Shown piece by piece: positions 175 through 27,943 of a DNA stretch of 34,367 nt (its first letter is position 1; every line of letters begins with the position of its first letter). Location of the stretch: contig JAKFVC010000002.1 of assembly GCA_021732415.1 (NCBI GenBank), positions 1 to 34,367 of the forward strand, in the 5' to 3' direction. Origin of the DNA: Planctomycetaceae bacterium. GTDB taxonomy: Bacteria; Planctomycetota; Planctomycetia; Planctomycetales; Planctomycetaceae. The notes under the pieces were generated by a model that made no database searches, was not told the DNA's origin, and worked only from the letters and a program-made list of their open reading frames with translations. A program made the translations under genes and the position numbers.

Positions 175-327
175 TGGAATGTTGACGATTGGATAATACT
201 CACGCTCGCGTTCCTCGGTTCCCCAACGTTCGCCAACCTCCTCGGCGCGAAGAACACCAAGGGCAGACATCACGATCGGAAGCAGAAGACAAAGGAGTCG
301 CCGGTGACTACTTCTTGAGTGGTTCAT
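1..327 (-). CDS. Membrane-bound-dehydrogenase-like secreted protein, N-terminal part (runs off window)
   Basis: The gene has no stop inside the window; 109 codons are visible. The ATG at 325-327 follows a GGAG Shine-Dalgarno-like sequence by about 8-9 nt, and the product starts with a signal peptide (basic SRSSHRR, hydrophobic LLCLLLPIVMSALGV, then RAEEVGERWG). The stretch with YYPIVNIPMP, IEAGAFAVLPDRRVAVGT and GEIYLIDGVDAP resembles the start of the beta-propeller dehydrogenase-like proteins (PVC type, L-sorbosone-dehydrogenase-like) of Planctomycetes. It starts 17 nt inside the end of the upstream five-haem cytochrome gene, so the two are probably translationally coupled and act as dehydrogenase plus electron acceptor in the periplasm. 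The last ten codons lie in a 30-bp inverted repeat and may not be genuine. Family assignment is from memory. Confidence 0.7.
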   Translation of the reverse strand, partial: MNHSRSSHRRLLCLLLPIVMSALGVLRAEEVGERWGTEEREREYYPIVNIPMPKDTIIEAGAFAVLPDRRVAVGTRHGEIYLIDGVDAPKPIPLFHRFATGLDDRIFRH

Positions 328-2746: not shown

Positions 2747-2801
2747 CGTGATCCTCGCTTCGGACTTGCCCACTGGATTCAAAGGAAGCTCTTGGAAGCG
2801 A

Positions 2802-4340: not shown

Positions 4341-4397
4341 CGAATGATCCTTTGAATTGGCTTCTACTGCGAAAAGTGATTTCGAGTTCAACACACT

Positions 4398-5431: not shown

Positions 5432-6535
5432 TCACATCACCTCGACGACTCGTTTACCGAGCACGTTCATCTTCGGTTCGATGCCCAGCCCCGGCGACGT
5501 GCTGGCGGCCATGAAGCCGTGCTCACGTTGCGGCGCGCCATCCGCCGTGCTGACGGTGACGTAGCTATTGAAATCCGTGCTGGTGAAACGGAACTCTTCC
5601 GGAGTACTGTGCGCGAGATGCGCGATCGCCGCCGTCGTGATGTCGCCTCCCCAACTGTCTTCGAGCGTCATCGCAATTCCCATCGAGACACACAGGTCGC
5701 GGGCTTGCTTCGTTTTCGTCAGCCCTCCGAGTTTGCTGATCTTCAGATTGACGACGTCCATCGCCAGATCCGCTTTGCCACGCAGCAGCATGTCGAGCGA
5801 GTCGATGTTCTCGTCGAGCACAAACGGATGGCTCGTGTTGCGCCGCACCGCGAGGCACTCCTCGTAAGTCAGACAGGGTTGCTCGATGTAAACGTCAATG
5901 TCTTGTACGGCTCGGACCACGCGCATCGCTTCGTGCTGAGTCCATCCGGTGTTGGCATCCGCGACCAGCCGGTCCGTAGGTTGCAACATCCCGCGCACCG
6001 CGCGAATCCGTTCGATGTCGGTATCAGGATCGCCGCCCACTTTCAATTGGAACCGTGTGTAGCCCTGCTCGCGGTAGCCTTGAACATTCTTCGCCATCTC
6101 ATCGGGAGCTTGTTGCGAGATGGCTCGGTACAGTCGCACGCTCTCGCCAAAGCGGCCTCCCAGCAACGTGCAGACCGGCAGTTGCGTGGCCTTGCCGAGA
6201 ATGTCCCAGCAGGCGATGTCGATTCCCGTTTTCACATACGGATGCCCCTTGAGCGCGGCGTCCATTCGATGGTTGAGCTTCGTCAGTTCGCGCGGATCAA
6301 AGCCGATCAGATGGGGTCCCAGTTCGCGGAGTCCGGCTCGCACTCCTTCAGCATACGCCGGCAGGTAGAACGGCCCCAGCGGACAGACCTCGCCGTAACC
6401 GATGAGTCCGCAGTCGGTCTCGACACCAATGATCGTGCTGTCGAACACTGACACCGACTTCCCGCCGGACCACTTGTACGAGCCTTCGACCAACGGCAGC
6501 TCAACCCGGTGAGCAAAAATACGTGCGATCTTCAT
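5432..6535 (-). CDS. Enolase-superfamily dehydratase, probable cis-3-hydroxy-L-proline dehydratase-like
   Basis: The 367-residue product is a mandelate racemase/muconate-lactonizing-type enzyme. ATG 6533-6535 follows AGGA by about 10 nt; an upstream in-frame extension to 6622 passes through the promoter and is rejected. Visible catalytic and metal residues are Lys165 (QLKVGG), Asp193 (VADANTGW), Glu218 (YIEQPC), Asp241/Glu242 (VLDENI) and Lys265 ([15 protein letters not shown]). The EQPC...[10 protein letters not shown] and [11 protein letters not shown] blocks recall cis-3-hydroxyproline dehydratases more than 4-hydroxyproline-betaine epimerases. That enzyme would make pyrroline-2-carboxylate from cis-3-hydroxyproline in the cytoplasm. 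The gene carries its own promoter with an operator shared with the head of the cluster. Superfamily certain, substrate tentative. Confidence 0.85.
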
Positions 6536-6578: not shown

Positions 6579-6656
6579 ATTCTAGTGTCAGAGGCAACGA
6601 ATCTCTTGGCCCAGAATCGCATCGAACCGTGAATCCGCGCACAAACTTCCCGAATC
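6579..6656 (-). promoter_or_regulatory. Promoter with shared operator block (copy A)
   Basis: A -10-like TAGAAT (minus strand, 6579-6584) lies 43 nt upstream of the dehydratase ATG. Exactly 18 nt further upstream begins a block (6603-6656) nearly identical to 20946-21000. The block contains GAATC at 6614, 6631 and 6652; the first two start direct repeats of the type GAATCNGC...AAAC, spaced 17 nt, as expected for an AraC-family site. No good -35 hexamer is seen, which suits activator dependence. Confidence 0.65.
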
Positions 6657-6698
6657 TTGACAACCTCCGCGCCTTTGGGCGTTGTTGGTCGTTCAGCA

Positions 6699-8255
6699 TC
6701 AGTGTTGGCCGGGTCGGCTGCGGCCGGTGGATTTGGATTGTTCGAGAAGTGCTTTCAGTTCGGTCGCGATTTCCGGACGCTCGATCGAGAGGTTCTTCGT
6801 CTCGCCCGGATCGGTTGCAAGATTGTAGAGCTGGCCGGGCGCGTCGGGGGCCGTGTCGGGAAGTTGGAACGGCTTGAGGCCGGGGTCGTTCTCGTAGCGA
6901 TTGCCGCCGGAACCGGTGTGGTCGAGGTACTTCCAATCGCCGCGACGGATCGAAAGCGTGCGCTGTCCGCCGAAGGCTTGCTGCAAGAGATAGGGACGGA
7001 TCGGTGCCTGATCCTCGCCAAGCCATGCGGGCAGCAAATTAAAACTGTCTTCCGCAGCGTTGTCCGGGAGCTTCGCGCCGATGATGGCGGCGACCGTCGC
7101 CATCACGTCGGTGAGACTGGTGAGCTGCGCGCTAGTCGCACCGGGTTTCACCTTGCCGGGCCAGCGGACGAGGAACGGCACGCGATGGCCCCCTTCCCAA
7201 CTGTCGCGTTTGACTCCGCGCCAAGGTCGAGCGCCGTCGTGATTGTAGTCCGCGCGCATGTGAATGACGCTGGCCGTTTCCGGGCCGTTGTCGCTGGTGA
7301 AGATGACAATTGTGTTGTCGGCGACGCCGAGTTGTTCCAGTGTCGTCAGCAGCTCGCCGACCACATGATCGAGCTGATGGATGAAGTCGCCATGCGGGCC
7401 GGCCTTGGTCTTCCCTTGGAACTCCGGCGCAGCGAACGATGGCAGATGCACGGCCTGCGCGGAGTGAAAGAGGAAGAACGGTTTGCTCGGAGACTGACGA
7501 ACGTGCTGCTCCAGAAACTCGCGACTCTTCTTCAGGAAGACGAGGTCCACTTCCTCCATCGGAAAATCCGGTGAGATCAGCCCGGCGCGGCAATCGTTCG
7601 CGTAGGGATGCTTGGGCAGCCGCGACTTGTCGAGCGGTCCAGTCGGCGGCACAGGCACGCGGTCGTTCTCAATGAAGGCATACAGCCAGTCGGTTGTCGG
7701 ACAGCAAGCGGTCCCGAAGAAACGCTCGAAGCCATGATCGACCGGCCCGCCTGCGATGCGTCGCGAGAAATCGACGCGACGAACCGCCTCGACCCCATCA
7801 CCGCGGACCGGCTTTCCCTCCTTGTCGAAGAACGTCAGCCCGACGTGCCACTTGCCGACGCACGCCGTGGCATAGCCGTTGTCGCGAAGCATGCTCGGCA
7901 GCGTGAGCCGACCGGGCGCGATCAGCGACGGCCCGCCGACTCCCGTGAAGACCGTAGCGCCATTCAGTACGCGAAAGGCCATCTGCCCCGTCATCAGGCT
8001 GTAGCGCGTCGGCGTGCAGACTGTGCAAGGACTATGAGAATCGGTGAATCGCATCCCTTCGCGAGCCACGCGATCAATGTGCGGAGTCGGAACTTTCGAC
8101 TGGTCGTTGTAGCAACGCACATCCCCGTAACCGAGGTCATCGGCGAGGATGAGAACGATGTTCGGCTTCTGCTGTTCGGCCTTGACGGCCGCGAAAGCAA
8201 CGCAGGCCAAGGGCAGCAGAGATAACGTGGCGAAGAAAAGTGCGGCTGTTTTCAT
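6699..8255 (-). CDS. Secreted sulfatase (formylglycine-dependent)
   Basis: The 518-residue product has an N-terminal signal peptide ([21 protein letters not shown]) and the type I sulfatase core: [15 protein letters not shown] (about 32-46, metal-binding Asp39/Asp40), then CTPTR with Cys80 as the residue converted to formylglycine and Arg84, then GKWHVG and FTSDNGPE. It hydrolyses sulfate esters, probably on a polysaccharide or glycoprotein glycan, outside the cytoplasm. Its ATG overlaps the stop of the preceding GH99-like gene by four bases (ATGA), so the two are translationally coupled and may act on the same substrate. The substrate class cannot be set from sequence. Confidence 0.93.
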
Positions 8256-9394
8256 GGTTTTGCGTTTCGGAGAGACTGGAGCGCACGGAGTGCCTTCCCC
8301 AAAGCGTGGATGCGGGAGTCGTCGGCCTTCTCATCGGCACCGCGCGTGGGCTGGAGCCAGCCGCCTTCGTCGTGCTCATTCCAGGCATAGATGATGATCG
8401 CATTGGCGGGATTGATATCGCGATTGGCCTTCGTCCATTCGATGGCCTCGCGAATGTGGGCGGTGAGCTCCTCCGGGGTTGCGGTCGTGGCATCAATGAG
8501 TGGTTTTTGCAGTGCGGGTGGTGTTGGGTCGGGCATGGCGACTTTGACCAAATCCTTGCACCACACCGGAGGACGCTCCTGGCGTGGACGAGTATCCCAG
8601 CCAGCGGTGGCAAAGGTGATGCAGGGAGTGCCATCCTGCTTCCATTGGTCCCACAGTTGACGGCGCACGTCGAACGACGTGAGTTCCGCGTAGGATTTAG
8701 GATCAGCCGTGTAGCCTTTGCCTGATGCCGCATAACGTGAGACTGCATCAAAACCGAGACTCAAACGCCCCGCCTCTGGCTTTCTCCAGTCCATGAGCAC
8801 GAGATAGGGTGCTTTCAGACCGGCTGCGATGGTTTGTTGCTTCAACTCGTCCCACTCCGCCCTGCCAAGCTCGGTAGTCTTCCCGAACAAACACAGCAGC
8901 GGTCGGCCATCGAGCACGGTTTGGTAATCAGGTTGCCGGAAGTGCTCCACGAGCCTGCCCCAAGCCTTCGTCCCTGCCTTGTCGAGCCGCGCGCCCTCCT
9001 CGACGAGGCAGTAGTGGATTCCTTTTTTGTCCTTCGCCGCCAGATAACGATTCATCGCAATACTCATGCCCGGCGCTTCATCGAGGTAGTCCACAACTGA
9101 CCAGTAGTTCAGCCCTGCCTGCGCCGCATAGGCAATCTCATCGTCCATGATCGCCTGCGAATCGCCGTTGATCTGCACCTTGCCATCGCCCATCACAACA
9201 GCGAACCACGGCAGGCGAAAATGATACTTTGGCTGTCCGAGCGATGCCTCGACAGCCTTTGTCACGGTCACATCTCCGTACCAGCCATCCCAGCGGATCG
9301 CGCCGACGATGGGTCCATCGTCACCAGCCTGCAACGCGGCCAACGGCGCGAGCAGCAAGCACAAGGCGGCGAGACGGATTGCTATTGTCTTCAT
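8252..9394 (-). CDS. Secreted GH99-like (WbsX-type) glycan-active protein
   Basis: The 380-residue product has a signal peptide (TIAIRLAALCLLLAPLAALQA) and a TIM-barrel-like body with GAIRWDGWYGDV, LNYWSVVDYLDE, DGRPLLCLFG, FATAGWDTRPR and, near the end, YAWNEHDEGGWL (about 337-347). This last block resembles the NEWxEG end motif of glycoside hydrolase family 99 and WbsX-like proteins, whose characterised members act on mannose-containing glycans. It overlaps the sulfatase start by 4 nt and follows the DUF4832-like gene by 40 nt. Catalytic activity is assumed from the fold; Glu/Asp in NEHDE are candidates for active-site acids. Confidence 0.7.
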   Translation of the reverse strand: MKTIAIRLAALCLLLAPLAALQAGDDGPIVGAIRWDGWYGDVTVTKAVEASLGQPKYHFRLPWFAVVMGDGKVQINGDSQAIMDDEIAYAAQAGLNYWSVVDYLDEAPGMSIAMNRYLAAKDKKGIHYCLVEEGARLDKAGTKAWGRLVEHFRQPDYQTVLDGRPLLCLFGKTTELGRAEWDELKQQTIAAGLKAPYLVLMDWRKPEAGRLSLGFDAVSRYAASGKGYTADPKSYAELTSFDVRRQLWDQWKQDGTPCITFATAGWDTRPRQERPPVWCKDLVKVAMPDPTPPALQKPLIDATTATPEELTAHIREAIEWTKANRDINPANAIIIYAWNEHDEGGWLQPTRGADEKADDSRIHALGKALRALQSLRNAKP

Positions 9395-9434
9395 TCAGTA
9401 GTTCCAAATCTGATCATTTTGCATTTGTCGTTAC

Positions 9435-10670
9435 TCATGGATTCAACTTGGCTTCAAACCCGATGCGTTGACCTGGGACGAGCCGGTCGGACTCGATGGT
9501 CAGCGCTGGCGCGGTGCCACCTGATGCGATCGAGAAATCGCGGTGCTCGCCGGGCAGCAGAACCGCGAGCGATTCGGCGGCTCGGACCCCGTTCACGGCG
9601 GGATAGGCATCGTAGTAAATGGGTGCGACTCCGATGTTGGCGATCGTCACGCGGGCGGCGGATTCGCTGGCCTCGAAACGCTCCACCTGGAACCGGTATC
9701 CGCATGCCGCGCTGTGGCGCGCGAGCTCGTCCTCCTTCATCCAGCGAGGCCATTGATCGGCGATCATGAAACTGATGTGGAAGGCGCTGGCCTGAGTCTG
9801 CCATTGCCCGCTAATCATGCGCGCGAAGTCCGCGGAATCCATCAGTTGCTCACCGCCCGCTGGCGAGCGCTGCCATCGGTCGCGGCCGAAGAAATCGCCG
9901 CCGGTACGGTTGTAGCCGGGCTTCCAGGCACGATGGAACGTATCATCGAAGATTCCGAATGGCAGCGCCAGCAAGTCGGGCATGGCTTTGAAGGGCGTGC
10001 GTTCGGCAACGTGCGCGTCCTTCGAGATCAGCCATCGGGTCACTTTGAATTCATTGGCCATATGCCGCATGAACTCCGCCTGAAAGGACTTGTCAGGAAA
10101 GTTCACGCCGACTTTTTCGCCCGGATCGTAGATGTGATATTCCGCCCAGAGTCCGAAGCCAACTTCGAGAAATGCGACGCGCGGATCTTTGTCATACTTC
10201 TGGGCAAACTCGGTCCAAAACTCAAGGACGAAACGCCGCCACTCCGCATTCGTCCAGTCAGGAAAGCCAGTCGGCTGACCCTCGCTCTTCTCGGAGTGGT
10301 CGTGATAGCCGGGCGCGGCCTTGATCCACGCGGGCACGCCGCTCGGGCGGCCCGGATAGGTGTCGTGCATGCGGAGGATGAGCTGATGCCCGCGTGCCGC
10401 CGCCTCGCTCATCAATCGCTCGACCCTGCTCCAATCGTAAATGCCGCGCGCCGTGGCGACTTCATCGTAACGCAGGTAGGCAAACTCCATCGAGATCGCC
10501 GGTGACTTTCGATGCTCCGACGTACTCCAGAAGACAAGCCCGGTCATCGGCAGCGTCCCTTTGATTTTGGCGCGAAGCGGAATCGAATGAAATTCATCGG
10601 CTCCATACGCGCAGCTCAACGTCAGGAACAGTAAGGACCAGGTGGCGACGCGGAGTGCGGTTGACTTCAT
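9435..10670 (-). CDS. Secreted DUF4832-like putative glycoside hydrolase
   Basis: The 411-residue product begins with a signal peptide (STALRVATWSLLFLTLSCAYG). Its first half reads like a GH42/GH5-type barrel start: LRYDEVATARGIYDWSRVERLMSEA, ILRMHDTYPGRP, then VAFLEVGFGLWAEYH, where Glu in EVGFGLWAE is a plausible catalytic acid. The C-terminal part (VERFEASESAARVTIANIGVAPIYYDAYP to PGEHRD) looks like the beta-sandwich of DUF4832 proteins. It is followed at 40 nt by the GH99-like gene and preceded by a pseudogene remnant rather than an intact gene. The family label is moderate; the enzymatic role is inferred from context. Confidence 0.6.
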   Translation of the reverse strand: MKSTALRVATWSLLFLTLSCAYGADEFHSIPLRAKIKGTLPMTGLVFWSTSEHRKSPAISMEFAYLRYDEVATARGIYDWSRVERLMSEAAARGHQLILRMHDTYPGRPSGVPAWIKAAPGYHDHSEKSEGQPTGFPDWTNAEWRRFVLEFWTEFAQKYDKDPRVAFLEVGFGLWAEYHIYDPGEKVGVNFPDKSFQAEFMRHMANEFKVTRWLISKDAHVAERTPFKAMPDLLALPFGIFDDTFHRAWKPGYNRTGGDFFGRDRWQRSPAGGEQLMDSADFARMISGQWQTQASAFHISFMIADQWPRWMKEDELARHSAACGYRFQVERFEASESAARVTIANIGVAPIYYDAYPAVNGVRAAESLAVLLPGEHRDFSIASGGTAPALTIESDRLVPGQRIGFEAKLNP

Positions 10671-10703
10671 TGCTGCGTTTTTTCGATCAGGGAGCGCGAG
10701 TTA

Positions 10704-10869
10704 GAGCCGTATCCGGCGTTGTCGCGGTTGGGCTGGTAATAGGACGTGCCGTCGGCGCAGTGGGCCATCGTGAACCACCAGCGATTGCGTCCATTGGATT
10801 CGTCATGGCAGAGGCACGGGCGTTGGCGGAGCGAACTGTGCCGAATCGTTTCATTGCTTCTTCTATCAC
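10704..10869 (-). pseudogene. Mosaic remnant: metallopeptidase-like fragment joined to DUF6288 fragment
   Basis: Read on the minus strand, 10869-10790 encodes RFGTVRSANARASAMTNPMD, clearly related to RFGDGRSANVRAYAITNPME of the protein at 19237-20883. At the shared ATGGA the sequence switches to the DUF6288 family: 10794-10704 encodes NRWWFTMAHCADGTSYYQPN and RDNAGYGSN after a one-base shift, with only a few mismatches to the intact copies at 2802 and 10866. It breaks off just before the next gene. No intact frame spans both parts. It appears to be the scar of a deletion between two cluster genes at short homology. Confidence 0.8.
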
Positions 10870-13550
10870 TGAGTCGCCTGCAAATTTGCCATCTCTTCGG
10901 CAAAGGCTTTGCCAATCGGCGCCATAATCTTGGCGGCACCGAGATAGTGGTAGCCCCCGTCGGAAGCGCCCTTCAGACGTTTTAACTCATCAGGCTTGAA
11001 GTTTTTCGCGATGGTCTTTTTGAGCGTCCTTTCTTTCGCCGCAGGAGTGAGCTTCGGATTTTTTTCGGCCTGTTCCTCAAACTTCGACTCCAACTGCTCC
11101 ATCCGCTCTTGCAGCTCGGCCAACTGGTCGTCCCAAAATGGTGCCGTCTGCACCGCCACCACGTTGCCTTGAAACTCTGAAAGAGACACGGGGGCAACCT
11201 GAGCTTCGCGAAAATACTTCTGGGGTGGCTTCTTCCCTTCCTCCACACCGCCGATTCCCATGACGCCAATCACGAAGGGCATCTTCGGCGCGGAGAGATC
11301 GTTGCGGACATCGCGGATGAAATGCGCCAGCAGTTCTCCGTAAAGGTCGTACCCACCGGGCTGCATCTGTTTGTCGTAGGTCCAGTCGGAAACCAAGTCG
11401 TTAAACCCTTGGAACCAGACGAAACCAGCGAGTTCGTAGCCCTGTTCTTCATCGTATTCCGGCACCACCTGTTTGATGTCCGCAAGAACCTTTCGTACAT
11501 GCTCGATCATGTGGCGGTAGAACAGGCCTGTGTCCTTTGCCTTCTCGGCCTTGATCTGTTCCAAGTCGTCCCCCTGCTCCTTGAGCTGAGCCAACTCGTA
11601 GTCACTCCACACGTAGGGCCCAGCGCTGGGTGGACGGAAATCCGTGTGCAGACTCTTTCCGCCCCAGGAAGCTTTAATGATGAGTATGGGCTCATCAAGC
11701 AGTTTCTCCATGTAAATGCCGAACGTGAATTCGGGACCAATCTCTTCGGTCGAGGCGCCGAAACCCGCCGTCAGCTTGCCTTTCTGCTCGATGACATCAG
11801 ACACGCCATCGCCCTCACAGCCGACCGACGAAATCCAGACCTTCTCACACACTCGTGGTCTGTCGTCGGCATCGCGCATCTCCTTGAGAATTGGCAGCGT
11901 CTTGGGGTCATCGGCCAAGGAATCGAACGTCGATATGTTCACATGCCCTTGCATGTTCGACTGCCCCGCGAGGACGAACACCTTCATCGGCTTGTTGGCC
12001 ACACGGGGCTTGTCGGCCGGTTTGACGGCGAACTTCGCATCCTTGCCGGTGATCACCAGGCTGTGCTTGGGAATCGTAAAGATGAACGCCACCACGGACG
12101 ATGCCGTCATGCGGGCGTCGGAGTCATAGCCGGCGTTGTCGCGGTTGGGCTGGTAATAAAAACTGCCGTCGGTGCAGTGGGCCATCGTGAACCACCAGCG
12201 GTTGGCGTCCATGAGCTTGCGAAAGCTGTCGGGATCGACGTTCGCGGCGAGCGCGGTGTAGGCCATACCCATCGGGGGTGAACCGTGCGTATCGGGGAAG
12301 CTCTGCGGATGCAGGCCGATCACCTTGGCGTGAGACAGCGCGCGCTCGCGATAGACAGGTTCGGAGTAGGGACTGAGGAAGTTGGCGATGCCCGTGGCAC
12401 CAGTTCGGCCCATGTCGGCCCATCCGTTTGGAGGTCCGCCAATTTTGTCGCCGTACCAAACGTATCCGTTTTGCCCGGTTCCCTTCCTGAGGAATGCGTA
12501 AGCAGCATCGTGATGTTCCCGATCAACCTTGATCCCGCAGCGGTCCATCAACGAATACGCCAATGCACCCTGTCCTGTGAGCATCGCGATGGGACCATAA
12601 CCCTCGAAGCCTGGATTGTGACCCCAGCCGCCATGAGAGTCCTTGGGCCCTTTCGGAAAATCATCCGGGTGTGATTTCTTGGCCTTGGGATTGATCTGCG
12701 ACATGTGCAGATACTGGCTTTTCGCCAGGTGATCATGGACCTCTTGCAGCTCCGGCAGCACCCATTTTTCACCCGTCGCCAGGTGGTATTCGCTGAGCAC
12801 AATCGCGGCGCTCATGTAGCTCCAGTTGATCAAATCGAAGATCCGTTTGTCCTTCGCACGAGTCTCGCGACAGTGATACTGCACGTTGAGCTTAACGGCT
12901 GGCAGATACTTCGCATCGCCGCTTGCCAGCAGAGCCAGCGGCGCGAACGTATTGTGGACAGGATCGCCGAACGAACCATCTTTCGCCTGATGTTCGACGA
13001 GGTACTTGAGCAACTCGGCGAGAATCTTGTCCGACTTCGCGCATGTGCCAGGGTAGGTCGACGCATATGCGCCGTACTTCTGACCGACATCAAGTTCGAC
13101 GTCTACGATCTCTTTACCGCGTCGAAGCGTGAGCGCGAGCTTCCCATTACGAGCAGCGCCCTGACACCCTTCAAGCACGTGTGCCAGTTCCGCAATGGGA
13201 CCGTCAGCGCCGAAGACTTTCTCGCCGTAACCGTTGCGGTGTGGCTCTTTGAACATCTGGCCGCCAGCGCCGACGATGAGATCTCCAATCTTGATGTGAC
13301 CATCCGCTGGTGACTTGGGAAAGACATATTTGATCAGCAATGCCTTCGGTTGATCGGCGACCAACTGAGCTCGTAAACCGGTGATTCCAAGATTGTAGAA
13401 CCAACCGGGCACTTCCGCGTCCGGCCCCGCGTCCGCTCGCTGCCCCCACGGACTGTCGTTGTCCTGATAATCAACCTGCGCCGGCAATGGCGATGCTAGG
13501 CCAAGAAACACGAGGCACGCCAGTCGTAGCATCGGAGAGCGAGTTGTCAT
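10866..13550 (-). CDS. Secreted DUF6288::SASA (sialate O-acetylesterase-like) fusion
   Basis: The 894-residue product starts at ATG 13548-13550 after GAAGGA and carries a signal peptide (TTRSPMLRLACLVFLGLASPLPA). Residues to about 510 are a close copy of the DUF6288 protein at 2802-4340. A short linker (KFAVKPADKPRVANKP) joins a SASA/CE6-like SGNH esterase: VFVLAGQSNMQGH (nucleophile Ser near 531), FVWFQGFND, and SDGGYHYLG supplying the His. A charged, probably coiled-coil insert (LQERMEQLESKFEEQAEKN, about 810-860) sits before the His block and is absent from the SASA domain at 19237. It probably removes acetyl groups from glycans while the DUF6288 part binds or positions substrate; this split of labour is inferred. 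Confidence 0.85.
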   Translation of the reverse strand: MTTRSPMLRLACLVFLGLASPLPAQVDYQDNDSPWGQRADAGPDAEVPGWFYNLGITGLRAQLVADQPKALLIKYVFPKSPADGHIKIGDLIVGAGGQMFKEPHRNGYGEKVFGADGPIAELAHVLEGCQGAARNGKLALTLRRGKEIVDVELDVGQKYGAYASTYPGTCAKSDKILAELLKYLVEHQAKDGSFGDPVHNTFAPLALLASGDAKYLPAVKLNVQYHCRETRAKDKRIFDLINWSYMSAAIVLSEYHLATGEKWVLPELQEVHDHLAKSQYLHMSQINPKAKKSHPDDFPKGPKDSHGGWGHNPGFEGYGPIAMLTGQGALAYSLMDRCGIKVDREHHDAAYAFLRKGTGQNGYVWYGDKIGGPPNGWADMGRTGATGIANFLSPYSEPVYRERALSHAKVIGLHPQSFPDTHGSPPMGMAYTALAANVDPDSFRKLMDANRWWFTMAHCTDGSFYYQPNRDNAGYDSDARMTASSVVAFIFTIPKHSLVITGKDAKFAVKPADKPRVANKPMKVFVLAGQSNMQGHVNISTFDSLADDPKTLPILKEMRDADDRPRVCEKVWISSVGCEGDGVSDVIEQKGKLTAGFGASTEEIGPEFTFGIYMEKLLDEPILIIKASWGGKSLHTDFRPPSAGPYVWSDYELAQLKEQGDDLEQIKAEKAKDTGLFYRHMIEHVRKVLADIKQVVPEYDEEQGYELAGFVWFQGFNDLVSDWTYDKQMQPGGYDLYGELLAHFIRDVRNDLSAPKMPFVIGVMGIGGVEEGKKPPQKYFREAQVAPVSLSEFQGNVVAVQTAPFWDDQLAELQERMEQLESKFEEQAEKNPKLTPAAKERTLKKTIAKNFKPDELKRLKGASDGGYHYLGAAKIMAPIGKAFAEEMANLQATQ

Positions 13551-13630
13551 CGATTGATCCTTCGGTTTGGTCATTGACTGCGAGAGTGTTCATTCGCAGC
13601 CCACCATGCCTGAATCGGCCTTAGCGACAG

Positions 13631-16003
13631 TCAGTCTTGCTTCTGGACAGGCAGGTGAGCGTGCAAGAAGTTTGTCAGCAATGAATAGAAATGCGGAACG
13701 GTATTATTGCCTTCATTGATCGCATGAGAACGTGCCGGGTAGGGCATTACTGTGAAACGCTTGTTGTGAGCGATCAACTCGTTGATCAGCATCTCGGTCC
13801 CCTGATAATGGCCGTTGTCGTCTCCGGTTCCGTGGACAAGCAGCAGGTTTCCCTTCAACTGCTTCGCATGGGTGATTGGTGAGCCGAGTCGATAGCCGTC
13901 GGCGTTGTCAGCGGGCAACCCCATGTAGCGTTCCTGGTAGATCGTGTCGTAGAGAAGCTGATCGGCATTGGGGGCGACGGCGATGGCGGTGTGATACAGA
14001 TCGGGATGGCGGAAGAGGGCGTTCAGGCTCATGCTGCCGCCGCCGCTCCAACCCCAGATTCCCACCCGTTTCGAGTCGGCGAAACTCCAGCGTTTTAGCA
14101 AGGCTTGCGCGGCCGCCGCCTGTTCCTCCGGCGCAATGATGCCGATCTTCCGGTGGATGCACTTTCTCCACTCGCGCCCGCGCGGCGCATTCGTTCCCCG
14201 ATTGTCGACGCTGGCGACCAGATAGCCCTGTTGTGCAAGCATCCAATGCCACAGTCCCCGCGGTCCCTGCCAGGCGTCTCGCACTGTTTGACCATGAGGT
14301 TCGCCGTAGACATGGAACAGCAGGGGATGTTTCCCCGATGGATCGGGCGACGGCGGCTTGAGGCACCAGCCGTCGAGCAGCAAACCGTTCCCGATATCGA
14401 CCCGGAAGAATTCGACGCCCGGAGAATCGAGCTCGGCGAGCTTCTTTCGCAGTTTCCCGTTGTCCGCCAGCACTCGAACCACACGGTGATCATCCAGCCG
14501 AATCAGCTCAACGACTGGCGGTGTCGTGAAGGTTGAGCATCGATGGATCGCCCAGATCGCATCGGGTGAAACATCGTAGGTATGCCAACCGGGCTGGCTC
14601 GCCGGCGACAAGCGCTCGGGTTTCCCGCCGTCGAGCGACACCCGGTACAGGTAGCGCTGAGTCGGATTGTCCGGTGATGCAGCAAAGTAGAGTCTTCCCT
14701 GGGCTTCGTCGATTGATTCCACCGTCAGCACATCGAAATCGCCAGCAGTGATCGCAAAGAACCCCTTGCCATAGGCGCTTGCGCGATAAGCATGCCGCCA
14801 TCCATTGCGTTCACTCAGCCAGACGACGCTCTTTCCGTTGTTCATCCAGCGTACGGGATTCTCATTCTCCAGCCATGCCGGATCTGTTTCTGTCAGCATC
14901 GTTCGAATCGCGCCGGTCTTCACATCCCACAGCATGACGCGGTTGACGTTCTGCAGGCGGTTCATCTGCTGGATCAGAATCGCTCCGCCGTCGGGAGCCC
15001 ACTCCATCTGCGGGAGATAGTGTTCGCGCGGATCACCCGGCAGGTCGAGCCAACGGGCCTCGCCGCCTGCGGTGGTGATCACGCCGATCCGACTGGCCGA
15101 GTTCGTCTTGCCAACCTTGGGATACGGGAATGAAGTGAGGCGAGGATAGGTTCCCTGCGTGTTGTCAATGAGGTGGAATTCTTCGACGCCTGTGGTATCA
15201 AATCTCCAAAAGGCAATTGACTGCCCGTCAGGGCTCCAGCGATAGCCGTCGCGGATCGTTAGCTCTTCTTCATTGACCCAGTCCGCGGTGCCGTTGATGA
15301 GCTTGGCCGACCCGTCGGTCGTCAGTGCCATGATGCTCATCTCGCGTAAATCCTGAACGTAGAGGTTGTTCTCACGGACATAGGCCACGCGTGAGCCATC
15401 GGGCGAGAACTTCGCGAACATCAGCGTTGACGGCGATGCTTGCCCGCCCAGCTTTTTCAGTTCTCGGCTGGCGATATCCAGAACCCAGTAATCTCCTCGC
15501 GAGTTGAGTCGCCAGACACGCTGGCTATTGGTATAAAGTAAGAGTCTTGATTCATCTCCCGAAAACGCGAAACCGTCCACGGAAAGAGGCTTTGACTCGC
15601 CAGAAGGGATGAATGCACTAGCCGGCACCACGATTTCCTCGGTGCCGCTGGCCGCGTCAACGCGAAGCACAACTTGGCCATCTCTATCGGCCGTAGTTCC
15701 GTTCAGCGTAAAGTAGCCTGCGCCCAACTTGCTCCAGACGATAGTGCCGATTCGATCCTCTTGGAACTCATCTGCGGAGAAAATTCGCTCCACCGTCAAC
15801 TGACTCCTTGAGTTTTCTGATCTCATCGGGATCTTTTCTGAGTCGGAACCTTGTCGAGGATCGGTGTGGGATTTGACCTGATTGCGAGTGCGAGGAGGTG
15901 TGGCAGCGTCGGCAGCACAGGCATTCCCGCACATCAATTGAAGCATCACGAAATAGACACTGCAGACCAGCATGTTACTTGGGATGGATTGGAGTTTTTT
16001 CAT
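13631..16003 (-). CDS. Dipeptidyl peptidase IV-type serine peptidase (family S9)
   Basis: The 790-residue product has a signal peptide starting MKKLQSIPSNMLVCSVYF, an eight-bladed-propeller-type N-terminal region and an alpha/beta-hydrolase C-terminal domain. DPP-IV marks are the double-Glu amine-binding motif in ADWVNEEEL, the DNRGTNAPRGREW block, the nucleophile Ser653 in GWSGGGS, the acid in HGTGDDN and the His in ARSHAINEG. Such enzymes release N-terminal dipeptides, preferring Pro or Ala at position 2, in the periplasm or at the surface. An in-frame start at 16075 would overlap the upstream SASA gene and hide the signal peptide, so 16003 is preferred. Proximity to a hydroxyproline-type dehydratase hints at Pro-rich peptide substrates. 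Confidence 0.9.
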   Translation of the reverse strand: MKKLQSIPSNMLVCSVYFVMLQLMCGNACAADAATPPRTRNQVKSHTDPRQGSDSEKIPMRSENSRSQLTVERIFSADEFQEDRIGTIVWSKLGAGYFTLNGTTADRDGQVVLRVDAASGTEEIVVPASAFIPSGESKPLSVDGFAFSGDESRLLLYTNSQRVWRLNSRGDYWVLDIASRELKKLGGQASPSTLMFAKFSPDGSRVAYVRENNLYVQDLREMSIMALTTDGSAKLINGTADWVNEEELTIRDGYRWSPDGQSIAFWRFDTTGVEEFHLIDNTQGTYPRLTSFPYPKVGKTNSASRIGVITTAGGEARWLDLPGDPREHYLPQMEWAPDGGAILIQQMNRLQNVNRVMLWDVKTGAIRTMLTETDPAWLENENPVRWMNNGKSVVWLSERNGWRHAYRASAYGKGFFAITAGDFDVLTVESIDEAQGRLYFAASPDNPTQRYLYRVSLDGGKPERLSPASQPGWHTYDVSPDAIWAIHRCSTFTTPPVVELIRLDDHRVVRVLADNGKLRKKLAELDSPGVEFFRVDIGNGLLLDGWCLKPPSPDPSGKHPLLFHVYGEPHGQTVRDAWQGPRGLWHWMLAQQGYLVASVDNRGTNAPRGREWRKCIHRKIGIIAPEEQAAAAQALLKRWSFADSKRVGIWGWSGGGSMSLNALFRHPDLYHTAIAVAPNADQLLYDTIYQERYMGLPADNADGYRLGSPITHAKQLKGNLLLVHGTGDDNGHYQGTEMLINELIAHNKRFTVMPYPARSHAINEGNNTVPHFYSLLTNFLHAHLPVQKQD

Positions 16004-16052
16004 GATGTGGCACACCAAGACGGTTCCTGATTCAATGTGCGGCGATGGCAGT

Positions 16053-19000
16053 TCATTCCGCTTCAATCGGCACATCGCAGAACGTCAGTGCGGCAAGACC
16101 ATTTTGGCCATAAAGCAGGTTGTCGGGGTTCCAGTTGGCGCTGTCGAGGTAGGTCACGGTCTTGGACGTTGATGGCTCCTTCAACTTCAGCGTGATGCGA
16201 TTTCCATTCGAAGTGCCAGCAACTACTTGCTTTGATTCTCCGTCGAGATGGAACTGACTGACGAGTGCGTCCGACCAATTGATTTGGTAGTCGAACTCCA
16301 GAATCAGTCCGTCGCGCTGTGCCGAAGTGAAGTACGCTCGCTTCAGGTTCGGCGGATTGAATGGGCCGACATGTCGGTGATAGAGGTGGTACTGCATCAT
16401 CGGATGTAGGAACCGAGCGAACTCGGCGTAACCCGCAGCGGGGAAGTGACAGCCGCCGGGCGGCTTGATGCCGAGCGTCGAAATCACGCTCAGGTTCGAG
16501 AACAGCTTGGGCAGCGTGCGTTGCACTTCGCGCAGGCGATTGTCCGAGCCGTTAATGCCCATCGCGCATGACTTCGGCCAGATCTGGAACGCATAGTAAT
16601 GCTGGATGTTCGGGTAATCCTCTTTCCAACTCGCGGCGAGGTCGATGAAGAACTGGCGATAGGTCTCATAGCCGTAACCGCCGGTCGGGCCGTCGGCACC
16701 TTGATCGTTCTCTCCTTGATGCCAGATGACGGCGCGGATGCCGTGCGTCAGCTTCGCTTGTTGGGTTCGCCATAGCTGTCGACCATAGATCGTGTTGACG
16801 TCGGTCGGGTCGGCGTTGTTGCGTTGATGCTGGTCGATGCGCGTGCCGCCCACTGCTCCGTTGATGATGCAGATCGGGATCTTCTCGCTCTCGACCAACC
16901 GTCGGCCGAGCTCCATACCCCAATAACCGATCTCCGACCTGCCGCCAGGACTGCGCGCTTCTGCATTGGCCCAGAGTTTCAACCGCGAGCCATTGGGATC
17001 GCCCGCCGTCGCTCCGAATGTACGAACCCACTCGCTTGGCACAAGCGGGTTCTCTTTGCCGAAGTCGTTCGCCACCGCGTTCGACTGGCCGATGATGAGG
17101 AACGCGTCGCCGCAGACGATGTTCTTTGCGGTGTGCAGCAAGGTCTCTTTGTTGCCGGTCCTCGAACCGAACTCGGTGCGGTACTTGATGAGCCCCAAGT
17201 TCAGCTTCGCGGACAGCACATACTTCTTGTCCGCAGTCAACTTGGCCGTTTCGGTCGTAAAGAGTTGATCGTCGGCGAAGACTCGCACAAAGACCGAGTC
17301 GGCGGCGGCGGCGAGCGTTCCGGCATAGACCAGCGACCCGAATTGCGAACTGCCTCGTCCCGGGCCGTCGCGCGGTATGAACTGGTTGTCTTCCGGCTGC
17401 TCTGAATCGGGGAGCGGTCGCGAAACCCAAACGTCTTTTGACGGTGTTGGCTCCTGTACAGAGATCGTAATCGACTGGACAACCGTTACGCCGCCGTTGT
17501 CGATCGAGGCGGTCACTCGCATCGCGCCGTTGCCTTGCGCCCGCTTCAGGATCAGCTTGCCGGCTTCGATTCGCTTGATGACCGCTACCTCGTCGACGGT
17601 CCAATTGACGTTCAACTGTCCCGCGCCTTTGGTCTGCATCGCAGCGATGTTGCTGATCTGCGGCACGACTTCGATCGTCTCACGGCCGTCCCATTTCGCC
17701 GGAGCAGCGAGCCTGAAAACGGGCTCGGGGATGTCGTCGCTGATCGTGATCGCGATGTCTTTCGTTTTCACTTCGTTGGCGTAGATGGTTTTGACAGTGA
17801 GCGTTGCTGTCAGTCCATTGTCGCCGTTCTTCTGCGGAGCAAAAGCCGACACTCGTCCCGCATCGAACGAATACTTGAACCGGTCCGTCGCCACGATCGA
17901 TTCATGTCCGTCGCGTTTTAAAATCCACAGCACCTTCTGAGCTCCGCCTGCCTTCGCAGTGATCGTCGCGCTCCGACCTTCGGCCACGGCAAGTTGTGTT
18001 TGCGAAACCGAGAACTCATTCCCCGGCTGGACGAGCGGACCTACCAACGTTTGATTCGGCTTCTGGTTGGCGTATTGCAGCTTGATCCATTCCGCCGTGC
18101 GCGCGACTTGCGAGACGCGAACCTCGTCGAGATCGCCGACGAAGTCATAATTGTTGTACCAACCACCGATCCACAGCCGGCATGGGCTTTTTAGGTTGAG
18201 CGGCCCACCTTCCTTGAGATTGGTGCCGTCGAGAACACCGTTCACATAGATCTTCGATTCCCCTTCACGATAGGTGTGGACGACGTGCGTCCAATCGCCG
18301 AGCGGCACGCGGTTGTCACTCTCCACGTTGCCGCCGGAGAAGTAGCAATCCATCCGGATGTGCGGTGGACTGCTGAACTGCATCACGACTTTGCCTTGAG
18401 CTTGTTCGTTGCCCCAGGCGATGAGCGTCGTATTCGGTCGCTCGGGACGAAACCACGCTTCGGTGCTGTGGGAATTCGCACCGGTCGGATAATTCGGAAT
18501 CTTGTCACCTCCGAAGATGCCTTTGCCGCCGGGCAGGTGCCGCGCCGTTCCGATCATCCCCGCAATCGGCGTCGAGCCGTTGTCGGTGCTGTTGAGCGTT
18601 CCCACTTCATCCTGCACTTGGTCGTTCATGTGCCAAACGCTGAGATAACCGTTCGACTCATTGAATACCGCCTTGCCATCGGACTCGCTGGACGCATTGG
18701 CGTTGCCCCAATGCGCCTTGATCTCCTGGCGCGAATTCCCGGTGATCAGCGGAACGCGCACCCAAATGCTTGCGATGCCCTTCGCCGCATCCCACTCTTC
18801 AATTTGAAACGTGAGCCGTTCGCCAGTGCTTGACGAGAACCGCAAGTCGGCACCATTCGGCTTCGCTTGAGTGAAGTCAAAAAAGTCTCGATGCAACCGC
18901 ACAAGCACGGGGAATTGTTCGGCTTTCGCATCGGCAGGCAAGTCCACGCCGTCGGGCGTCGTGAGCAACCACATCGAACCGGAATGATTCCAGTCCTGAT

Positions 19001-19124
19001 ACCTCGCGGCAGCCGGCACTGGTTTGTCATCCGCGACGCTTGACATGGTCAGCGCGAGCGGCAGTAGGGCGACGGCAACGAAAACAGATGCACGAAGGCA
19101 TTTCTTCAAGGGGATGAGATTCAT
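16053..19124 (-). CDS. Secreted DUF2341/LamG::SASA multidomain esterase
   Basis: The 1023-residue product starts at ATG 19122-19124 behind a strong AGAGGG. After a signal peptide come a DUF2341-like region (about 40-140; FPVLVRLHRDFFDF, DLRFSSSTG), a LamG/concanavalin-type lectin domain (about 160-330; STEAWFRPE, WTHVVHTYREGESKIYVNGV, GDLDEVRVSQVART), an Ig-like/linker stretch and a C-terminal SASA esterase: LIIGQSNAVANDFG (Ser), VIWHQGENDQG and GGCHFPAAG (His). The nucleophile motif lacks the usual Met (GQSNA). It probably deacetylates a polymer held by its lectin-like module. The downstream peptidase gene starts 50 nt after this stop. Confidence 0.85.
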   Translation of the reverse strand: MNLIPLKKCLRASVFVAVALLPLALTMSSVADDKPVPAAARYQDWNHSGSMWLLTTPDGVDLPADAKAEQFPVLVRLHRDFFDFTQAKPNGADLRFSSSTGERLTFQIEEWDAAKGIASIWVRVPLITGNSRQEIKAHWGNANASSESDGKAVFNESNGYLSVWHMNDQVQDEVGTLNSTDNGSTPIAGMIGTARHLPGGKGIFGGDKIPNYPTGANSHSTEAWFRPERPNTTLIAWGNEQAQGKVVMQFSSPPHIRMDCYFSGGNVESDNRVPLGDWTHVVHTYREGESKIYVNGVLDGTNLKEGGPLNLKSPCRLWIGGWYNNYDFVGDLDEVRVSQVARTAEWIKLQYANQKPNQTLVGPLVQPGNEFSVSQTQLAVAEGRSATITAKAGGAQKVLWILKRDGHESIVATDRFKYSFDAGRVSAFAPQKNGDNGLTATLTVKTIYANEVKTKDIAITISDDIPEPVFRLAAPAKWDGRETIEVVPQISNIAAMQTKGAGQLNVNWTVDEVAVIKRIEAGKLILKRAQGNGAMRVTASIDNGGVTVVQSITISVQEPTPSKDVWVSRPLPDSEQPEDNQFIPRDGPGRGSSQFGSLVYAGTLAAAADSVFVRVFADDQLFTTETAKLTADKKYVLSAKLNLGLIKYRTEFGSRTGNKETLLHTAKNIVCGDAFLIIGQSNAVANDFGKENPLVPSEWVRTFGATAGDPNGSRLKLWANAEARSPGGRSEIGYWGMELGRRLVESEKIPICIINGAVGGTRIDQHQRNNADPTDVNTIYGRQLWRTQQAKLTHGIRAVIWHQGENDQGADGPTGGYGYETYRQFFIDLAASWKEDYPNIQHYYAFQIWPKSCAMGINGSDNRLREVQRTLPKLFSNLSVISTLGIKPPGGCHFPAAGYAEFARFLHPMMQYHLYHRHVGPFNPPNLKRAYFTSAQRDGLILEFDYQINWSDALVSQFHLDGESKQVVAGTSNGNRITLKLKEPSTSKTVTYLDSANWNPDNLLYGQNGLAALTFCDVPIEAE

Positions 19125-19236
19125 TTTCCCTCTTCATCGAAACAGCGTTGGGGCCAACAAATCGGAGACGCCACTTTAATTACACGGTGCCAGGTGTGAG
19201 TTGGATTCCTGTTTTGCGGGTTGCAGGATCTCTGCA

Positions 19237-20883
19237 TCACTTCGTCTCGATGAGCTTTTTCATCGCTTCGCCCATTGCCTCGCCGATGAGGTAATAGGTC
19301 TCGGCGTTTGTATTCCAATGGTAACCTTGACCGCTCGGTGAGATTTCCTTTGGACGCCAGAACGCTTTCGTGCCGACGAGGGCGACGTTGCCTTGGAATT
19401 CCGGACGTTCGGCGACGGCAGCCTGGGCTTTCATCAGCGACAAGGCGCGCGGATGTTTCTCCTCGGGACCGGTCATGCCTGTTTCGGCGATGACAAACGG
19501 CAATGCGGGGACGCCCAAATCTTTGCGAATGTCGCGGATGAAGTTGGCCATGTTCTCTTCGTACTCGGCGTTGAACTTGTCGTTGATGCGATCGTTCCAG
19601 CCTTGATGCCAGCCGAATCCGGCAATCTCGTAGCGACCATCGGAGCCGGGCACGAGTTCCTTCACCTTGGCGAGTGAGGCTTTCGTGAGCGTCAGTGTTT
19701 CAAGGTAATACTTGCCGACGATTCCAGGAACAGCAGCGACCTCAGCATCCTGCTTCTCTCCGAGCGAGTACGGAACCTTGCCCGAACTCGGCGGTCGAAA
19801 ATCCACCGCGAGACTCTTCCCGCCCCACGCGCACTTGATGAGCAACACCGACTCGGTCATCGCGTCTCCCATGACCCAACCGAAGCTCAGTTCCGGGCCA
19901 ATGCGGTCCGGCTTTGGACCATAACCCACCGTGAGTGGCCCCTGGCGGTCGAGATACGAAATCCAAACGTCGTCGCGCACCACCCACTTCCCGTCTTTGC
20001 CAACGAGATGGCCGAAACGCGCCGAAGTGCCGGGGTCTTTCACGAGATACTCCAGGCTCCCTTTGCCTCCGTTGCGTTTGGGATCCGCAGCGATGAATCC
20101 CTGCCCTTCCATATTGGACTGCCCGGCGAGAATGAAAACCTTCACCGGCTTTGCCGATTCGGCCGTCTCGCCCCAAAGCGTCTTCAACACCGCGAACATC
20201 TCCGGATCGTGATTCGCCAGTTGCTCGCGAGTGAACGGGAAAAAGTCGTTCGTGGAGAAGAATGCTTCGCTGCACTCGGCGAAATACTCCATCGGATTCG
20301 TGATCGCGTAGGCACGAACGTTGGCCGAACGGCCGTCGCCGAATCGCTGTTCGACCTTCTCATAAAGGCCCTTCGCTTTGGCTTTCTCGAAAGCGACTTT
20401 GATTTCATCGTTCCCGAAGCCTTTGGGGATGACTCGATCATGGTAAGCATGGGCCAGTTCGTGCAGAGTGAAATTTGGCATCCGTTTGGTTTCACCCTCG
20501 AAGTTACGGATGTCAGAGAACTCGACGGCTTTTGCCATCGCGGGGTCTCGTTTGTTCGCTCTTAACCAGCCGGCATCGGGGTGATATTCGGCGCGCGGCT
20601 GCACACCGGCATATTGAGGAGAAAACCACAGCGGAACCTTGCGCAACTCCGCGACGGCCGCGGCAGGTACAACACGGGTAATCTCTTGAAGCTGAACCGT
20701 CAGGAGTTCCAAGGCTCGCTCCGTCGCGGCTTTGTCCTTTTCGAACAACTCGTCGCTGATATGCAACGTCCAGCCTTCGACCGTTTTCGTTTGTCGGCCG
20801 GGAACTTTGGATGGCTCGGCGGAATAGACCAGATAAGTTCCCGCAAGAAAGACGAGGCAGACAACGGTGATGCAGGGCTTCAT
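19237..20883 (-). CDS. Secreted metallopeptidase-like::SASA fusion
   Basis: The 548-residue product has a short signal peptide (PCITVVCLVFLAGTYLVYS). The N-terminal half (about 30-240) holds HELAHAYHD at 141-149, an HExxH zinc motif, followed by TNPMEYFAECSEAFF (about 195-209), where a Glu can serve as third zinc ligand as in gluzincins. The C-terminal half is a SASA domain: VFILAGQSNMEGQG (254-258 GQSNM), GFGWHQGWNDR and GQGYHWNTNAE. It is the first gene of the cluster behind the divergent regulator, with an operator-linked promoter 38 nt upstream. A fusion of protease and acetylesterase suits a glycoprotein substrate, but the peptidase activity is only predicted from the motif. Confidence 0.82.
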   Translation of the reverse strand: MKPCITVVCLVFLAGTYLVYSAEPSKVPGRQTKTVEGWTLHISDELFEKDKAATERALELLTVQLQEITRVVPAAAVAELRKVPLWFSPQYAGVQPRAEYHPDAGWLRANKRDPAMAKAVEFSDIRNFEGETKRMPNFTLHELAHAYHDRVIPKGFGNDEIKVAFEKAKAKGLYEKVEQRFGDGRSANVRAYAITNPMEYFAECSEAFFSTNDFFPFTREQLANHDPEMFAVLKTLWGETAESAKPVKVFILAGQSNMEGQGFIAADPKRNGGKGSLEYLVKDPGTSARFGHLVGKDGKWVVRDDVWISYLDRQGPLTVGYGPKPDRIGPELSFGWVMGDAMTESVLLIKCAWGGKSLAVDFRPPSSGKVPYSLGEKQDAEVAAVPGIVGKYYLETLTLTKASLAKVKELVPGSDGRYEIAGFGWHQGWNDRINDKFNAEYEENMANFIRDIRKDLGVPALPFVIAETGMTGPEEKHPRALSLMKAQAAVAERPEFQGNVALVGTKAFWRPKEISPSGQGYHWNTNAETYYLIGEAMGEAMKKLIETK

Positions 20884-20921
20884 GTGATTACTCTGGTAGA
20901 ATCATCGGTTATAAAATTGTC

Positions 20922-21000
20922 ATTGTACCTTCAGCGACCACCACGCTCTTGGACCAGAATCGCATAAAACTGTGAATCCGCGCACAAAACATCCCGAATC
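20922..21000 (-). promoter_or_regulatory. Divergent promoter with shared operator block (copy B)
   Basis: TACAAT on the minus strand (20922-20927) lies 38 nt upstream of the metallopeptidase::SASA ATG and exactly 18 nt from a block (20946-21000) almost identical to 6603-6656. GAATC occurs at 20957, 20974 and 20996; GAATCGCATAAAAC and GAATCCGCGCACAAAAC form a direct repeat spaced 17 nt. The block ends a few bases before the regulator ATG on the other strand, so binding could both activate the cluster and repress the regulator gene. Confidence 0.65.
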
Positions 21001-21004
21001 CGCC

Positions 21005-21721
21005 ATGCATTCCCGCGTTGCGCCGGTGGACGTCGCATTATTGGAACGGCTGTTTGACAGGTCTCCGGATGTGGCATTTTTCGTTAAAGACGGTGTGGGA
21101 CGTTACGTTGCCGTGAACGAGTCGCTCGTGGCACGCCATGGATTGAAGAGCAAGTCGCAAGTCATCGGCAATTGCCCGCGTGACATTTGCCCCGGTGACT
21201 TTGGCCGGATTCCCACCGAACAGGACGAGAAAGTCCTACGCACCGGCCGTCCGTTGGTTGACCATCTCGAAATGCAATGGCATCGACCGAACGACCCGGT
21301 CTGGTGCCTGACGACGAAGCTGCCGATGCTGGATTCAAACGGTGCCGTCGTTGGCCTGATCGGATTCTCGCGCGATGTCCGCGTGCCGGTCGAACCTCAC
21401 GAGATTCCCAAGGACTTCGCACGTGCCCTCGAAGAATTTGAGCAAAGCCTCTCGTCTGAGGTGACTCCCGCCTGGCTCGCACGTCGTTCCAAACTTTCGT
21501 CTCAACGTCTGGCTCGTCTGACCAAGCGACTCTTCGGTCTGACGCCGAGCCAGTTCATTACCAAGTCGCGGATCGCAGCCGCGTCGCGGATGCTGCGCGA
21601 TCCCGATCAATCTGTCTCCGAAATCGCACACGCTTGCGGTTTCTACGACCACAGTGCCTTCACCCGCGCCTTCCGATCCGCCACCGGTATCACACCCTCT
21701 GAGTTTCGTACTCAACAGTAA
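21005..21721 (+). CDS. PAS-AraC family transcriptional regulator
   Basis: The 238-residue cytoplasmic protein has a PAS sensor domain at about 10-125 (LLERLFDRSPDVAFFVKD, GRYVAVNESL, WCLTTKLPMLD, VVGLIGFSRDV) and an AraC-type double helix-turn-helix at about 145-238 (TPAWLARRSKLSSQRLARL, QSVSEIAHACGFYDHSAF, TRAFRSATGITPSEFR). ATG 21005 gives the family-like MHSR...DVALLERLF start; a GTG at 20972 would lie inside the operator block. It is divergent from the 20-kb catabolic cluster and next to copy B of the repeated operator, so it is the likely regulator of both promoters. PAS ligand unknown. Confidence 0.9.
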   Translation: MHSRVAPVDVALLERLFDRSPDVAFFVKDGVGRYVAVNESLVARHGLKSKSQVIGNCPRDICPGDFGRIPTEQDEKVLRTGRPLVDHLEMQWHRPNDPVWCLTTKLPMLDSNGAVVGLIGFSRDVRVPVEPHEIPKDFARALEEFEQSLSSEVTPAWLARRSKLSSQRLARLTKRLFGLTPSQFITKSRIAAASRMLRDPDQSVSEIAHACGFYDHSAFTRAFRSATGITPSEFRTQQ

Positions 21722-27897: not shown

Positions 27898-27943
27898 GTC
27901 GCATCCTTGTGAAAGAACTCGAAAACGGAAATAGAGGTCAAGA

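Follow-up and report, generated by a model that had tools for sequence, protein, structure and literature searches.

Two promoter-linked copies of one block in a Planctomycetaceae genome as probable operators of an LhpR-like PAS-AraC regulator

A stretch of 34,367 nucleotides (nt) from a Planctomycetaceae bacterium (GenBank assembly GCA_021732415.1, contig JAKFVC010000002.1, positions 1 to 34,367; hereafter the window) carries two nearly identical blocks, A and B, each placed in front of a set of genes and close to a sequence resembling a -10 promoter hexamer, which raises the question of what these blocks do and which protein recognises them. Their geometry, its conservation in relatives and its link to a neighbouring araC gene suggest that A and B are the operators of an LhpR-like activator with PAS and AraC-type domains encoded at 20972-21721, a reading to which a probability of about 0.85 is assigned. 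The elements on which it rests are the following.

6603..6656, minus strand: operator block A, with TGTGC at 6639-6643, N30 and CAAG at 6605-6608; 54.6 bits from a model that left A out
20946..21000, minus strand: operator block B, with TGTGC at 20982-20986, N30 and CAAG at 20948-20951; 48.9 bits; overlaps the araC start codon
6579..6584, minus strand: -10-like hexamer TAGAAT of promoter A
20922..20927, minus strand: -10-like hexamer TACAAT of promoter B
20972..21721, plus strand: gene of a PAS_4 + HTH_18 regulator of the AraC family, with a GTG start within block B

The two blocks are identical at 38/44 core bases in an ungapped comparison and differ by a single 1-nt indel over the full 54/55 nt, whereas their 60-nt flanks agree at just 27/60 and 22/60 positions. 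At both A and B the gap from block to hexamer is 18 nt, and the ATG of the first gene follows the hexamer at 43 nt (A, ATG at 6535) or 38 nt (B, ATG at 20883), both predicted operons being read from the minus strand. The -35 consensus is absent at both promoters at the spacers inspected (16-18 nt), where the sequences are AGAGAT/AAGAGA/CAAGAG at A and AGAGCG/AAGAGC/CAAGAG at B. These properties had been described in an earlier note on this DNA and were all reproduced. A 17-mer common to A and B occurs in 2 exact copies in the window against 0.22 expected at up to 3 mismatches, a count of 2 being reached also in 2/100 shuffles.

The protein encoded beside block B contains a PAS_4 domain (62.7 bits, cut-off 23.1; residues 28-137) N-terminal to an HTH_18 domain (83.2 bits, cut-off 33.6; residues 169-247) that places it in the AraC/XylS family. 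The earlier note had put this gene next to copy B, which is right as to the company of B and imprecise as to the start, since the GTG at 20972 falls inside the block. Many orthologs have GTG or ATG at this codon (21 GTG and 6 ATG in 27 ortholog rows, picked for beginning with either), while the downstream ATG of the window is not kept, being CTG in locus L001 and AAG in L010; araC therefore most likely starts inside B. The 3' half of the block is in consequence in-frame coding sequence of araC, and that half is kept too by A and by other copies away from araC. A codon test on these 27 rows for constraint at the DNA level at araC codons 4-5, in which Arg 4 ranked 3/65 among conserved columns and Thr 5 fell below the 90% filter, gives mild support for such constraint and was not used.

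How many such blocks exist in the source genome was addressed with a 35-nt pattern allowing up to 3 mismatches, which has 3 forward matches in 9.87 Mb, 0 on the other strand and 0 with a reversed-pattern control. The third copy, on contig C11, coincides with the start of a PAS-AraC paralog gene that is 90% identical to the window regulator, and a run of 756 N begins about 46 nt upstream of it. A sequence-only model of 44 positions, built from 20 ortholog copies including B and the C11 copy and excluding A, scores A at 54.6, the C11 copy at 50.8, B at 48.9 and the next-best site at 16.3 bits, so that A is the top match in the genome by a model that had left it out. Two of the strong copies stand at PAS-AraC genes and one before a dehydratase gene, and the genome search that the earlier note had proposed brought up one extra strong copy, beside a paralogous regulator.

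The conservation of the arrangement was followed in 170 genomes of the family (an order-level search gave the identical 170), of which 68 encode PAS-AraC relatives (E <=1e-30, paralogs counted) and 29 contain matches to the block model at E <=0.01, or 23 at E <=0.001. In 26 ortholog 5' regions, picked for a visible block and anchored on CGCACA (or GAGCACA), the hexamer ATTNTA of the plus strand (TANAAT when read from the minus strand) occupies a fixed position, with A in 22, T in 17, T in 19, any base, T in 21 and A in 23 of them; L025 and L027 (no block by eye) and the unplaced L036-L038, L008 and L009 were left out of this set, and six of the 26 were dropped from the model alignment. Scanning 36 stretches and the window gave 40 copies, of which 25 have and 15 lack an araC match within 900 nt. 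In the latter group TANAAT lies exactly 19 nt past the 44-nt block in 14/14 readable copies (1 of the 15 is N-masked), as TAAAAT in 7, TAGAAT in 6 and TACAAT in 1, and at none of the other offsets between 0 and 59 were three near-matches reached; the check proposed in the earlier note, whether further copies keep their distance to a -10 near related genes, supports its reading. Among the 25 araC-linked copies, a loose group that takes in an inverted araC neighbour (genome G107), araC relics (G001, G103:C259), a partial araC (G114:C265) and a weak site (G011), 13 match 5/5 positions and 21 at least 4/5 at the same offset, and offset 33 gave near-matches in 5/25.

Of the 15 copies without araC, 13 face gene families that the window also has. 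The first such gene in the direction of the promoter proves to be the dehydratase in 8 cases (a partial match of 56% in one, a distance of about 0.7 kb in one), in 4 it is of SASA type and in 1 an S9 peptidase, while of the remaining 2/15 one stretch is N-masked and the other has its next window-family gene about 1.5 kb away. The layout dehydratase, block, 11 to 14 kb, SASA gene, block, araC is common to the window, G104 and G001, which represent three genera. At named loci the gene divergent from araC (600-nt rule) is the dehydratase in 20 and none in 32/59.

The block is also linked to a neighbouring araC. A dehydratase of at least 80% identity is encoded in 52/170 genomes (hand count), 21 of which have an araC of at least 50% identity, and a strong block (E <1e-5) occurs in 16/21 genomes with araC against 2/31 without (G139 and G147, drafts of 1560 and 1340 contigs). 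Upstream of dehydratase genes without a neighbouring araC the block is absent in 20/20 cases, every best score being negative, and araC gives no match there; 19 of these upstream stretches come from genomes in which no araC reaches 50% and one from G125, which carries its araC on a different contig, and two are only 306 and 192 nt long. The sole CTTG-GCACA match in this control lies in the 192-nt stretch, within the coding end of the dehydratase.

Beyond close relatives, a bipartite core was found which reads, seen from the promoter, T[AG]TGC-N30/31-CAAG followed by TANNNT about 20 nt on, and which recurs at many loci encoding PAS-AraC proteins in Verrucomicrobiota, Deinococcota and Proteobacteria, including 4-hydroxyproline operons. 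Its complement, CTTG-N28..30-[ACG]GCACA, is present at the araC start in 46/61 readable named loci (66 in total) against 0.07 expected, a value derived from the 12 matches counted away from that place in 1.77 million strand-bases. A spacing of 29 is seen in 31 loci; in the other 15, which have 41-50% identity and are mostly titled Verrucomicrobia, it is 30, organism names being record titles that may be wrong for metagenome bins. In 18 loci from plasmid records (PAS-AraC 38-47% identical; 7 of 26 plasmid records are not in the set) T[AG]TGC-Nn-CAAGA is matched 24 times at n=31 and 5 times in total at all other n from 22 to 40, compared with a mean of 0.73 and a maximum of 3 in 30 shuffle rounds, and TANNNT lies 19-20 nt past the core in 20/24 of these matches. 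Near araC and on the operator strand, n=30/31 is found in 48/62 named orthologs, 12/20 planctomycete paralogs and 11/19 loci of a third set, compared with 9 matches in total for the remaining n between 20 and 40 (4 of these being paralog matches at n=36) and 2 on the opposite strand. Paraburkholderia L198 carries three copies of the core, before DHDPS, substrate-binding-protein and 4-hydroxyproline epimerase genes, and L200 likewise; in Deinococcus L207, L209 and L212 the core lies between araC and a proline racemase/oxidoreductase/DHDPS operon. On the Deinococcus plasmids L197, L199, L202, L203 and L205, core-bearing PAS-AraC relatives diverge from genes of DMT-family transporters, so that the module extends beyond hydroxyproline enzymes.

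The known system closest to the window is the LhpR regulon of Pseudomonas aeruginosa. PA1261/LhpR is reported to contain a PAS domain (PMC8694187), and LhpR is described as an AraC-family activator that binds L-hydroxyproline (PMC6608401). The window regulator is identical at 91/236 aligned positions (39%) to the AraC protein of a plasmid-borne P. aeruginosa lhp cluster, which was taken as LhpR from its place in that cluster and through which the comparison was made. The two systems are alike in the PAS and AraC parts and in the hydroxyproline-type enzymes nearby. A candidate counterpart of the window core, TATGC-N31-CAAG, precedes the 4-hydroxyproline epimerase of the lhp cluster, though as CAAGC and with no TANNNT in the range inspected; the agreement is stronger in Burkholderiales and Deinococcus. 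The systems differ in the spacing, which is 30 in the window, in the overlap of the window operator with the start codon of the regulator, and in the enzymes: no epimerase or D-hydroxyproline dehydrogenase was recognised among the 17 window proteins scanned, and the dehydratase, of enolase type, is accompanied there by genes for sulfatase, acetylesterase and peptidase. HypR regulons of Sinorhizobium, Shewanella and Streptomyces also concern hydroxyproline catabolism and place an operator ahead of both regulator and enzyme genes (PMC5343134, PMC6608401), but their regulator is of the GntR family, of which no match was found among the 17 window proteins scanned, and that of the window belongs to the AraC family. 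No planctomycete AraC regulon or such cross-phylum motif is reported in the excerpts of open PubMed Central literature among the matches listed (including PMC5343134 and PMC3223726), and no account of this system was found there under hydroxyproline in Planctomycetes or dihydroxyproline dehydratases. What would be new is thus an LhpR-like regulon of a planctomycete with a long-kept operator geometry, LhpR-type regulation itself being already known.

The following mechanism is proposed. The PAS-AraC protein would bind the TGTGC (N30) CAAG pair, with the CAAG half occupying the place of the -35 box, and would bring RNA polymerase to the -10 hexamer about 20 nt on; its PAS domain would sense a compound of hydroxyproline type, upon which operons A and B would be switched on. 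Since the operator at B covers the start codon of the regulator, the bound protein may also damp its own synthesis there. The claim of the earlier note of a promoter-linked operator ahead of two sub-operons, served by an AraC-family regulator, is supported by geometry, domains and relatives, whereas its direct repeats spaced 17 nt, offered as an AraC-family site, did not withstand analysis: shift 17 has z 0.66 and P 0.25 (column permutation, 39 copies). Among the 27 shifts tried, shift 28 gave P 0.049 and shift 30 P 0.0095, the latter failing correction for 27 trials, and direct repeats about 17-22 bp apart, as in AraC-type operators, are not apparent, the lowest P at shifts 15-24 being 0.06. 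An inverted repeat in the block is unconvincing as well (its best value of 6.9 compares with 5.6 +/- 1.2 for the permuted maximum).

Among other explanations, the one that fares best keeps the PAS-AraC protein as the one that binds the block and makes the site one of repression. The operator does lie where polymerase would bind, beside the -10 hexamer and over the araC start codon, and in S. meliloti the hydroxyproline regulator HypR acts as a repressor (PMC5343134). An activator-dependent promoter nevertheless fits better, because the -35 box is absent at both A and B, and LhpR is described as an activator (PMC6608401); repression is accordingly considered improbable. Somewhat less probable still is that B is merely the conserved 5' coding end of araC and A a functionless remnant of a split or duplicated dehydratase-block-araC locus. 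The coding nature of the 3' half of the block would agree with this, as would the genomes in which dehydratase and araC diverge around one block (G103, G112, G113, G114, G154, G138, G140, G142 and G106), and relics of araC follow two operator copies: residues 1-46 at 54% identity after the dehydratase-side copy in G001 (G001:C46:50029, L082) and a C-terminal piece in G103 (G103:C259:5395, L089). Such relics may be traces of how extra operator copies arise. Against a remnant stand the copies without araC, which retain the noncoding half and the -10 hexamer at one place (14/14 readable), the score of A, which exceeds that of B with no araC after A, and the cores of Deinococcus and Burkholderiales, which precede other genes and do not lie within araC. 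Taken as an account of the origin of A, this explanation is likely; as a claim of no function it does not fit. That a small mobile or repetitive element, close to promoters by chance, accounts for the block, for which near-identical copies amid unlike flanks could speak, is hardly credible given just 3 strong copies in 9.87 Mb, the 20/20 blockless dehydratase upstreams without araC and the fixed -10 offset.

Several observations weigh against the two blocks being operators of an LhpR-like activator. The block has no significant repeat, in contrast to textbook AraC sites, and the promoter of araC itself was not recognised. G139, G147 and G163 have the block and no detected araC of at least 50% identity, in drafts of at least 1340 contigs. 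The P. aeruginosa site reads CAAGC, with no TANNNT in the range inspected. The core near araC was not found in 14/62 named orthologs and 8/20 planctomycete paralogs, 4 paralog loci have n=36 in place of 30/31 (perhaps an operator shifted in one clade), L206 and L208 lack any T[AG]TGC-CAAGA site, and several Deinococcus relatives adjoin transporter or other genes instead of hydroxyproline genes. Finally, the loci are kin by descent and the named loci partly duplicate the genomes of the model, so the locus counts are not independent.

Should A and B be the operators of the PAS-AraC activator, a predicted operator, promoter and target set would be available for a planctomycete regulator, and the rigid recognition rule would allow hydroxyproline regulons to be sought in other genomes through LhpR-type regulators; for sulfatase, esterase and peptidase genes of unknown purpose, a hypothesis on hydroxyproline-rich glycoproteins would follow. 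The predicted targets, with limits of the operons as suggested by their arrangement, are listed below.

5432..6535, minus strand: enolase-type dehydratase, first gene of operon A (NCBIfam equivalog NF043002, 619 bits, cut-off 500)
4398..5336, minus strand: DHDPS-family gene, operon A (domain scan, identity comparison)
2802..4394, minus strand: DUF6288 protein, operon A (domain scan)
308..2782, minus strand: cytochrome c-type protein, operon A (domain scan)
19237..20883, minus strand: SASA-type acetylesterase, first gene of operon B (domain scan)
16053..19124, minus strand: DUF2341 / LamG / SASA protein, operon B (domain scan)
13631..16075, minus strand: DPP-IV / prolyl-oligopeptidase-type S9 peptidase, operon B (domain scan)
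10866..13574, minus strand: DUF6288-SASA protein, operon B (domain scan)
9435..10670, minus strand: 411-amino-acid protein with no Pfam or NCBIfam match, operon B
8252..9394, minus strand: WbsX-like protein, operon B (domain scan)
6699..8255, minus strand: sulfatase, last gene ahead of block A (domain scan)

Enzymes of hydroxyproline type stand under the predicted control, as the dehydratase equivalog heads operon A and the DHDPS-family gene is 67% identical to its counterpart in a Paraburkholderia 4-hydroxyproline operon. The dehydratase, whose best solved relative is 4mgg, belongs with the enolase-superfamily dehydratases represented by LhpJ (PMC5144071), found here in a planctomycete cluster with PAS-AraC and hydrolases of carbohydrate esters, sulfate esters and peptides. 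In the acetylesterase at 19237-20883, two metallopeptidase-like Pfam matches below cut-off precede the SASA domain. Neither a 4-hydroxyproline epimerase nor a D-hydroxyproline dehydrogenase was recognised among the 17 scanned window proteins, and for this reason 3,4-dihydroxyproline would fit as a substrate: the enolase-type enzyme would dehydrate its 3-hydroxyl and the product would be the substrate of the DHDPS-family deaminase, a direct route that would account for a cluster without epimerase or dehydrogenase. This part is a guess, because a DHDPS of more than 60% identity is present in only 6/20 named loci with the dehydratase divergent from araC, the stretches being limited. 3,4-Dihydroxyproline is reported from diatom cell walls (PMC4557024), and an aconitase-type dehydratase has weak activity on one of its isomers (PMC5144071). 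A wider proposal, that the PAS-AraC regulators of Planctomycetota, Verrucomicrobiota, Deinococcota and Proteobacteria have retained one operator-promoter module and that aquatic planctomycetes recruited it to a regulon for glycoproteins with 3,4-dihydroxyproline, a residue also borne by diatom walls, is put forward tentatively and is rather doubtful.

Two LhpR-like circuits, each with its own targets, seem to coexist in the genome. A PAS-AraC paralog (37%) on C76 adjoins DHDPS and 4-hydroxyproline epimerase genes, the latter being the only epimerase match of the genome, and TATGC-N30-CAAG and TATAAT lie between the araC paralog and those genes. Among planctomycete paralog loci the pair of DHDPS and epimerase is present in 16/20, and TANNNT follows 18-19 nt after 11/12 core sites near araC. 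Paralog loci L221, L222, L224, L225 and L226 have DHDPS and epimerase and no N30 core near araC.

With genes of other genera (relatives in G104, G135, G113, G103 and G001) the window araC shares 88-92% identity, but 64% with that of G076, a genome of the same genus, which suggests that the cluster moved by horizontal transfer. Adjoining the regulator, at 23615-31218, lies a defence-type island with an HmaB-like methylase (254 bits), an ATPase resembling AriA or PtuA with a weak AriB-like match after it, and an open reading frame that combines an HmaC-like N-terminal part (299 bits) with a phage-integrase domain near its end. The end of this integrase-bearing frame is overlapped by a transfer-messenger RNA gene (31153-31510, minus strand; RF00023, 155 bits), which suggests that the island integrated at ssrA.

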